Shown here: one piece after another, positions 22,133 to 24,198 of the stretch
Layout: each line of letters starts with the position of its first letter
Position numbering within the stretch: position 1 is the stretch's first letter
NCBI GenBank assembly: GCA_003169675.1
Contig: PNAT01000188.1
Span: 24,637 to 82,835 of the forward strand
Direction of reading: 5' to 3'
Source of the DNA: Acidimicrobiaceae bacterium
Lineage (GTDB): Bacteria > Actinomycetota > Acidimicrobiia > Acidimicrobiales > RAAP-2
Length of the DNA stretch: 58,199 nt
Notes under the pieces: model-generated
Seen by the model: only the letters and a program-made list of their open reading frames with translations
Told to the model about the DNA's origin: nothing
The model's database searches: none
Made by a program: the position numbers and the translations under genes

Positions 22133-22626
22133 GGTTTTGGTGTTGTCGTCGAGCTGGGAGCAGCCGCGGGTGCGGGGGTGACTTTCGGAGTGGCCAATGG
22201 GGACGTCAGTGGGACAAAGGGGATCTGGATCACCACAGGTGGGTGCACCAGGTGGAGTCGACCAAGAGCAGCCGACACAATCCGGGACGGCGTCTCGAGT
22301 TGGGACACCTGGAGCTCGGTGTGGCGGTGGGCGCTCTGCTCGAGCGTGAGCTGATGCTGAATGGCGGCCATGCGCACCTGACCGTCGGCCAACAGGGCAT
22401 GTCCGGCGACGACAACCAGCAGTGCACCCACGACCAGGGACACCGAGAGGAGGGTGGCCACCAGGCCCTCGGCCCGCCACAGGCGCCGACCCGACTTCCG
22501 CCCACCAGGGACGGCCCGCAGCGAGGGTCGGCGCGCCGCGCCGCGGCCCCCATGCTCACTCCCCCGCCCCGGGCTCGATACAACCCGCCGAACCGCCGCG
22601 CCTGAAGATGCCGAAGGAGGTGCCAT
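22129..22626 (-). CDS. ftsL: FtsL-like divisome protein
   Basis: A 165-residue bitopic protein in the ftsL position between rsmH and ftsI. The basic N-terminus (1-52) is followed by one membrane segment (GLVATLLSVSLVVGALLVVVAGHALLA in part) and a short helical region QVRMAAIQHQLTLEQSAHRHTELQVSQLETPSRI in part, which looks coiled-coil-like. The C-terminal tail is Pro/Ala/Thr-rich. The ATG at 22626 shares TGATG with the rsmH stop. Sequence conservation in FtsL is low, so the call rests on topology, size and gene position. Confidence 0.8.
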   Translation of the reverse strand: MAPPSASSGAAVRRVVSSPGRGSEHGGRGAARRPSLRAVPGGRKSGRRLWRAEGLVATLLSVSLVVGALLVVVAGHALLADGQVRMAAIQHQLTLEQSAHRHTELQVSQLETPSRIVSAALGRLHLVHPPVVIQIPFVPLTSPLATPKVTPAPAAAPSSTTTPKP

Positions 22627-23549
22627 CAGGGCACGTCCAATCGCACAATGGCCCGCAGGCGGGCGCTCTCGGCTCGGTGGTTCTCCGCTACCTCGGCAGC
22701 TGAAGCCTTCCGGGCGCCCTGGAAGAGCAACCGATACCGGATCACGGCGCCACACACGCACGGGAGATCGGGCGGGCAGGTGCAGCCGCCGGTGGCGGCC
22801 TCCCGCAGGACCTGCTTGGCCAGGCGGTCCTCACCGGAGTGGTAGCTGATGACGGCGCACACGCCCCCGGGGACCAACCGCGCCAGGGCCAGCGGCAACC
22901 CGGCCGCCAACTGCCCGAGCTCGTCGTTCACTTCAATCCGCAGGGCCTGGAACACCCGGCGGGCCGGGTGGCCCTTGCGCCGGACCGCAGCCGGCACGGC
23001 GGCCGCCACGACCTCGGACAGCTGGGTGGTGGACGTGAGAGGGCGAGCGGCGACCACGGCCCGGGCGATGCGCCCGGACAGGCGCCCCTCGCCGTTCTCC
23101 CGGAAGAGGGATGCCAACGCGCCTTCGGGAAGCTCGTTGACCAACTGCCCCGCCGTGGCCCCCGAGGTCTGGTCCATACGCATGTCGATGGTCCCGCCCA
23201 GGCGGTACGAGAATCCCCGCTCGGAGCTGTCCAGCTGAGGTGAACTCACCCCCAGGTCGAACAGCACGCCGGAGACCGGCCCCGGCACCACGTCGCCCAG
23301 GGATGAGAAGGGGGCGTGCACCAGGGTGACCCGATCCCCGAACCGGGCCAAGCGCTCCCGAGCGGCAGCCAGGGCAACCGTGTCTCGGTCCAACCCCACA
23401 ACGGAGAAGTGCGCGTAGGCATCGAGCAGTGCGGCACTGTGGCCTCCCCCACCCACCGTGGCATCGACGATGACACCGGCCGGCGCCGATGCGAAGAGCG
23501 ACACCACTTCGTCGCGGAGAACGGGCGTGTGTTCGAACGAGTGGACCAT
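22626..23549 (-). CDS. rsmH: 16S rRNA (cytosine-1402-N4)-methyltransferase RsmH
   Basis: The SAM-dependent methyltransferase (MraW) acting on 16S rRNA C1402. From the ATG at 23549 it is 307 residues, the family's usual size: FEHTPVLRDEVVSLF opens it, the SAM site is DATVGGGGHSAALL, then VVGLDRDTVALAAA, FDLGVSSPQLDSSERGFSY in part and VISYHSGEDRLAKQ. The start has GGGGAG six bases upstream, but both lie in the 3' arm of a 23-base inverted repeat. An in-frame ATG at 23705 overlapping the mraZ stop could give a 359-residue form. Confidence 0.95.
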   Translation of the reverse strand: MVHSFEHTPVLRDEVVSLFASAPAGVIVDATVGGGGHSAALLDAYAHFSVVGLDRDTVALAAARERLARFGDRVTLVHAPFSSLGDVVPGPVSGVLFDLGVSSPQLDSSERGFSYRLGGTIDMRMDQTSGATAGQLVNELPEGALASLFRENGEGRLSGRIARAVVAARPLTSTTQLSEVVAAAVPAAVRRKGHPARRVFQALRIEVNDELGQLAAGLPLALARLVPGGVCAVISYHSGEDRLAKQVLREAATGGCTCPPDLPCVCGAVIRYRLLFQGARKASAAEVAENHRAESARLRAIVRLDVP

Positions 23550-23660
23550 CTGTAGCTCCCCGACAGGAGCGAGGAGCGAAGGGTGGAGTTCCGCTCTGTC
23601 ATGGGGGAAGAGGGTGGAGGGGTCTTCCACAACACCGGTCGGGGAGCTACACATGGTCCA
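23542..23660 (-). ncRNA. mraW-RNA-like structured leader burying the rsmH start
   Basis: In the mRNA the arms 23660-23638 and 23564-23542 pair over 23 bases with one mismatch. The 3' arm contains both the rsmH ribosome-binding site (GGGGAG) and its ATG. The 73-base loop contains two smaller hairpins, GTGGA/TCCAC (23614-23630) and CTCT/AGAG (23594-23612); the second displays CTTCCCC (23604-23610). A conserved loop CUUCCCC and location before mraW are features I recall for the published actinobacterial mraW RNA motif. The whole segment is also open in frame with rsmH. Function is inferred: control of rsmH translation. Confidence 0.65.
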
Positions 23661-23704
23661 GCGGGCATATACCGCCGTTGGTCGGTTGGTCAGTAAGTCA
23701 GGCA

Positions 23705-24127
23705 TCACTCCTCGGGGTCGTCGCCCAGGAGCCATCTCTCCTCGGGCTGGACGCGCTCGGCCCAGGCCGGCGGACTCCACAGCTCGACGCGATCGATGGC
23801 TCCATGCACCAGCACCTCGCTCTCCAGCCCGGCGAACTCGCGCAGATGCACGGGAATCGCCATGCGGCCCTGGCGGTCGATCTCCACCTCGTGCGAGGTC
23901 GACGCCCACAACCGGGCGCGGTTCCGGTCCGATCTCCCCGACTCGGCCCGCTCCTGCATCACCGCCATCTGGCGCTCGAACTCCCCCGGCGTCCATAGAG
24001 CGAGACAACCTTCTGAGTGCTGGGTCAGGTAGCCACCCCGCTCGAACTGGGCGCGGAACTTCGCCGGCAGGATGACCCTGCCCTTGATGTCGAGCGAGTG
24101 CTCGTATCTCCCTACTAGTCCGGCCAC
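23705..24127 (-). CDS. mraZ: Transcriptional regulator MraZ
   Basis: The first gene of the dcw cluster, encoding a 140-residue AbrB-like DNA-binding protein that controls the dcw promoter in several bacteria. Two SpoVT/AbrB half-repeats are visible: YEHSLDIKGRVILPAKFRAQF in shortened form (about 8-28) and EVEIDRQGRMAIPVHLREFAGL in shortened form (about 80-101). The GTG at 24127 lies nine bases after GGGAG. The stop overlaps a downstream in-frame ATG as TGATG. Upstream are tandem AAAGTGG-type boxes, its likely own operator. Confidence 0.96.
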   Translation of the reverse strand: MAGLVGRYEHSLDIKGRVILPAKFRAQFERGGYLTQHSEGCLALWTPGEFERQMAVMQERAESGRSDRNRARLWASTSHEVEIDRQGRMAIPVHLREFAGLESEVLVHGAIDRVELWSPPAWAERVQPEERWLLGDDPEE

Positions 24128-24171: not shown

Positions 24172-24198
24172 CCCCTTCGCGCCACTTACCACCACTTT
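24172..24198 (-). promoter_or_regulatory. Candidate MraZ operator (tandem boxes)
   Basis: On the minus strand AAAGTGG, TAAGTGG and GAAGGGG occur with a strict 10-base period (N3 spacers), and a weak fourth TCAAGGA follows at 24168-24162. This matches the published style of MraZ sites: short G-rich boxes repeated once per helical turn. The first box overlaps the -10 element, so autorepression is the simplest reading. Confidence 0.65.

Follow-up and report, generated by a model that had tools for sequence, protein, structure and literature searches.

A covarying RNA leader of rsmH in Acidimicrobiia that commonly holds the rsmH start codon in its stem

Almost every bacterium carries a conserved rsmH gene, which stands first in the division and cell-wall cluster, and our literature search found no report on how the level of rsmH is set. 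The question takes a concrete form in a contig of an Acidimicrobiaceae bacterium, of which a stretch of 58,199 nucleotides (the window) was analysed. A long inverted repeat lies between mraZ and rsmH, and an initial annotation had read it as a hairpin that locks the rsmH ribosome-binding site and start codon and is crossed by ribosomes restarting at the end of mraZ. Does such an RNA exist, and could it govern rsmH translation? We take the rsmH product to be the 16S rRNA m4C1402 methyltransferase, a name that comes from family knowledge and homologues. Homologues of mraZ were found upstream of rsmH in relatives. The features of the locus are listed in Table 1.

Table 1. Features of the mraZ-rsmH region in the window.
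Feature	Position	Strand	Details
rsmH (mraW)	22626..23549	minus	307 aa, opened by ATG 23549-23547
mraZ	23705..24127	minus	140 aa, GTG start; TGA stop 23707-23705
P1 5' arm, TGGACCATGTGTAGCTCCCCGACCGG	23635..23660	minus	repeat search, fold, covariation
P1 3' arm, with rsmH ribosome-binding site and start codon	23542..23567	minus	repeat search, fold, covariation
Shine-Dalgarno-like GGGGAG	23556..23561	minus	pairs with CUCCCC of P1 5' arm (fold)
rsmH ATG	23547..23549	minus	pairs with CAU of P1 5' arm; start placed by homology
P2 hairpin	23606..23628	minus	GGAAGA (23628-23623) pairs with UCUUCC (23611-23606), fold
P2 loop CCCCUCCACCC	23612..23622	minus	includes CUCCACCC (23619-23612), the window's version of the conserved CUCCGCC(C)
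P3 hairpin (GAGCGGA/UUCGCUC)	23574..23596	minus	fold, alignment; variable, missing in some orders
Stop-free leader in rsmH frame	23550..23708	minus	from GTG 23708 / ATG 23705 at mraZ stop to rsmH ATG

In the window, a repeat search returned two arms of 26 nt that are 92% complementary and 67 nt apart (P1). The initial annotation had described 23-base arms with one mismatch; these are the inner 23 bases, the mismatch being G opposite G. Its placement of GGGGAG and the rsmH ATG within the 3' arm was equally accurate, and the gap between the two is 6 nt. The folding energy of the 118-nt element is -60.7 kcal/mol (z = -7.1), a value equalled by none of 200 shuffles, and within 201 nt of context the fold has z = -4.2. 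CTTCCCC had been assigned to the loop; in the fold, 23610-23604 is mostly paired, with CUUCC forming the 3' strand of P2. Neither a sigma-70 promoter nor a terminator was found in the region.

Upstream of mraZ, the window carries AAAGTGG-TGG-TAAGTGG direct repeats (24182-24198, minus strand), which resemble known MraZ operator repeats, and 62 of 113 loci have AGTGG N4-6 AGTGG in the 300 nt before the mraZ homology. Two 25-nt direct repeats, 80% alike and 30 nt apart, span the end of mraZ (23700-23754).

From relatives we collected RsmH homologues together with the DNA preceding them; after re-orientation, the arms were sought by ungapped search. The same stem was found at the same place in most relatives, and a MAFFT alignment of 86 elements was clear. 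An alignment of 65 sequences with P1, P2 and P3 has 88.5% of its cells paired, and 26 of its 37 pairs change on both sides, compared with 8-15 when the partners are slid. Because relatedness can inflate such counts, a tree-preserving null was run on 90 class-wide sequences with significance at E<0.05. Seven structure pairs, all in P1, were significant, and no non-structural column pair was. The compensatory changes in P1 thus exceed what phylogeny gives; such changes in relatives were the check that the initial annotation had proposed for its hairpin. P2 has 89% of its cells paired in the 65-sequence alignment, with 5 of its 8 pairs changing on both sides, and none of its pairs is individually significant in the 90-sequence null. 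At one locus (L026) both P2 strands are replaced wholesale. In most orders P3 has a very conserved loop, GGGGAGA(A/C)AUCCC (L127-L130, L133, L135, L136, L139, L151 and similar); elsewhere P3 is degenerate or missing. Fold and alignment agree on a long stem topped by a hairpin. The hairpin is thereby confirmed, and is better supported than the initial annotation could know.

In the class Acidimicrobiia, a covariance model built from the rsmH leader element (R1) finds matches in 201 of 296 genomes. In a phylum sample of 246 genomes, all 14 matching genomes belong to Acidimicrobiia and no match lies outside that class. The window's own genome has one match. Each of the 76 fetched matches (L123-L198) is directly upstream of rsmH, in the orientation of that gene. 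G030, a complete genome from the window's order, has no match; there the mraZ stop is only 8 nt before the RsmH homology (L030). Since a bare perfect 25-bp hairpin (L114:621-672) scores 31 bits with R1, low-scoring matches deserve trust only with rsmH context. In the searches made, the element is exclusive to rsmH. It represents a new RNA leader family, absent from Rfam 15, of a kind already known, the cis-regulatory leader of rsmH. What is unusual in the new family is the combination of a start-codon stem with a translated in-frame path.

The known leader of this kind is the mraW RNA (RF01746), listed for Actinomycetales as a possible cis-regulator whose function is unproven (Weinberg 2010; PMC2864571); our literature search found no paper giving it a function. 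In C. diphtheriae the motif has been placed ahead of the point where mraW transcription begins. An intergenic transcript of M. tuberculosis falls in the rsmH leader, inside an N-terminus that had been mis-annotated, which parallels the open frame of the leader described here. The initial annotation had linked the window to this motif through CUUCCCC. That link did not hold. With membership set at a covariance-model match of at least 50 bits, RF01746 matches nothing in the window, nothing around the element with E allowed up to 10 and nothing in 14 relatives with E allowed up to 5, and the same tools detected it in Mycobacteriales-type genomes and Corynebacterium glutamicum. Nor was a mraW-type terminal loop with unpaired ACUUCCCC found; CUUCC is paired in P2 of the window, and the class-wide loop is CUCCGCC. 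Membership was accordingly rejected.

Kinship at a greater distance is another matter, the element being in that case a far-diverged mraW RNA that works by the same mechanism, whatever that may be. Both stand before rsmH, occur in one phylum and follow a common plan, a structured leader with a long stem, an apical hairpin and a C-rich loop that begins ACU (ACUUCCCC in mraW RNA, ACUCCGCC in the Acidimicrobiia element), and R1 matches one mraW RNA (L116) at 20.5 bits (E = 0.005). That match proves little, because the bare hairpin scores higher with the same model, and it was discounted. The conserved CUUCCCC of mraW RNA, unpaired there, contrasts with CUCCGCC here, and the Acidimicrobiia element differs further in that it usually includes the rsmH start codon and occurs only in Acidimicrobiia in the samples searched. 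Together with the failure of RF01746 to match, these differences make far-diverged kinship a possible but doubtful account.

The position of the start codon within P1 recurs. Of 135 distinct elements, 80 have a start codon at one P1 position, with AUG paired to CAU; a start was counted when it was in frame, open, within 15 codons of the RsmH homology and 7 nt from the end of the P1 3' arm. Both the window's family and the 90-96-nt forms found in other families of Acidimicrobiia use this position; those shorter forms have no P3. In the window and in these 80 elements, ribosome-binding site and start codon alike lie within a conserved, covarying stem, as in a sequestering element. The other 55 of 135 have no usable start at that position near RsmH, a common cause being displacement of the element to tens of bases or more upstream of rsmH. 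Locking of the start codon therefore cannot be the sole function. Start-codon hiding is common, not universal, and the lock proposed for the window stands for a majority of elements and not for all of them. An upstream ATG in the 5' arm was considered as a required start and rejected, as relatives often have ATC, ATT or CTG instead.

The displaced elements bear on whether P1 is instead an RNase III site, cut so as to split the mraZ-rsmH message or make it less stable, with start hiding as a side effect. A helix of 24-26 bp is long enough for RNase III. P1 is near-perfect over that length, and processing would not depend on how far the stem is from the start. Such a site would leave unexplained both the near-invariant CUCCGCC loop and the repeated placement of the start at one P1 position in separate families, and we regard this explanation as unlikely.

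In the window, ATG 23705-23703 and GTG 23708-23706 are in the rsmH frame, without a stop before the gene. A single mraZ-rsmH frame relation is found in 76 of 83 Acidimicrobiaceae-like loci carrying the element. Between 98 and 590 nt long, the spacers of these 76 loci show 52 different lengths that leave one and the same residue modulo 3, which implies many independent indels. The rsmH frame is open in 76/76, where shuffled spacers predict 18; the other two frames are open in 36 and 52. Because the loci are related, a simple binomial P for the open frames was not taken at face value. At the mraZ stop, 82 same-frame loci read ATGA, GTGA or TTGA in 37 and CTGA in another 37. The frame is thus conserved and the restart ATG is not. 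The leader claimed by the initial annotation, an in-frame, stop-free path through the hairpin, holds across the family, and the exact TGATG overlap proved to be the window's own variant; it was rejected as a conserved feature, being variable even within the genus, where GTGA occurs in 3 of 4. The overlap of stop and start and the open frame to rsmH are those of translational coupling. Beyond the window's family, loci differ in frame relation and some have stops; the RNA is thus class-wide, and its translated leader a feature of one lineage.

In close-relative pairs, substitutions by codon position are 205:181:325 in the spacer, 116:94:387 in rsmH and 25:27:29 in the element; the spacer was aligned via a protein alignment, with a slight bias toward third-position changes. 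Wobble positions are frozen inside the element. We read this pattern as a spacer probably translated under weak protein constraint and an element constrained as RNA. One clade shows mainly third-position changes over the 70 nt that precede P1. A peptide containing GLAAVARHDVHIERVWPMRSPSTG is encoded in the rsmH frame about 190 to 110 nt upstream of rsmH, with mostly third-position changes, in L059, L062, L068, L076-L078, L086, L093, L095 and L096, which suggests that this clade has a real N-terminal extension of RsmH.

Might the whole leader be merely a conserved N-terminal extension of RsmH, its RNA structure a by-product of codons? The open frames, the frame-keeping indels of the family and the codon-like variation upstream of P1 in the one clade would fit. 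The flat codon-position pattern and frozen wobble positions of the element, the covariation of P1, and copies in other orders that are out of frame or have stops upstream do not, and the idea was rejected as very improbable. A palindrome acting as DNA, for instance an operator for a protein or a small mobile element, would account for a near-perfect inverted repeat and is scarcely credible given its single copy in the genome, its constant position and orientation ahead of rsmH, the compensated pairing changes on one strand and the conserved asymmetric loop.

What the element might bind is suggested by its loop. Of 135 elements, 116 have CUCCGCC in the loop region, compared with 2% in shuffles, and 124 have CUCC(A/G)CC. 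The commonest full loop form outside Acidimicrobiaceae is ACUCCGCCCG (57/135). In one whole 16S rRNA from an Acidimicrobiia order, the best site for ACUCCGCCCG is ACACCGCCCG at 1396-1405, with 9 of 10 bases alike and 7 at the next best site. That stretch includes C1402, the target of RsmH (PMC5053481). The match was noticed post hoc; by shuffling, P is 0.003 for the 10-mer itself and 0.027 when every 10-mer covering C1402 is allowed. The window's genus has CUCCACCC, with A where 16S has G1401. We regard the likeness of the loop to the RsmH target region as suggestive. Two other roles for the loop were rejected. An anti-Shine-Dalgarno loop (CCUCC) was considered because Acidimicrobiaceae loops read CUCCUCCGCC; the class-wide form UACUCCGCCCG has no CCUCC. 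Kissing between P2 and P3, by CUCC with GGAG of the P3 loop, is at odds with the lack of P3 in the 90-96-nt forms.

We favour, by a modest margin over doubt, a reading in which the element is a cis-acting RNA controlling rsmH translation, a lock opened by ribosomes arriving from mraZ and set in its closed state by binding at the loop. With P1 closed, 30S subunits would be unable to start at the rsmH AUG. A ribosome ending mraZ could restart at the overlapping NTG, read on and melt P1, upon which either an N-terminally extended RsmH would be made or the rsmH AUG would be exposed. The conserved loop would be the putative repressor-binding site that sets the closed state. Where the element lies upstream of the start, the same binding would have to act in some other way.

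Because the loop resembles its 16S target and the element is found only at rsmH, RsmH itself is the likeliest candidate for the loop ligand; the attribution is tentative, and we hold it at less than even confidence. RsmH has been reported to act on 30S and not on protein-free 16S rRNA (PMC5053481), so a naked RNA mimic may not bind it. The stem, near -60 kcal/mol, may also be too stable for a graded switch. The fullest version of the idea is that RsmH represses its own synthesis through a loop mimicking the C1402 region, that in the window's family the switch sits within a translated leader and is reset by mraZ ribosomes giving a long RsmH, and that mraW RNA does the same job. Taken as a whole, this version is rather unlikely.

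Related systems are known. Some ribosomal proteins autoregulate by binding mRNA mimics of their rRNA site, and a target-like leader would likewise sense free enzyme against free substrate; RsmH differs in being a modifying enzyme, and the likeness here is 9 of 10 bases, in sequence only. Translational coupling through overlapping stop and start codons is known, and the NTGA overlap at the mraZ stop with an in-frame path to rsmH resembles it, except that the path crosses a conserved structured RNA, over 98-590 nt, before the usual rsmH start. Thymidylate synthase is reported to bind its own mRNA, where it stabilises a hairpin hiding the start codon (site 1; PMC4274661). The parallel is an enzyme on a start-hiding hairpin of its own message, and the differences are an unrelated enzyme and RNA, from human, and that binding by RsmH is a proposal.

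An in-frame translated leader means that a structured RNA is embedded within a translated region, and RsmH starts in the window's family are therefore probably mis-annotated. A class-wide, strongly covarying leader offers a concrete handle on how the level of RsmH is controlled. It also points to a possible function for mraW RNA, listed since 2010 without a proven one, which may be to sense free RsmH against its 30S substrate.
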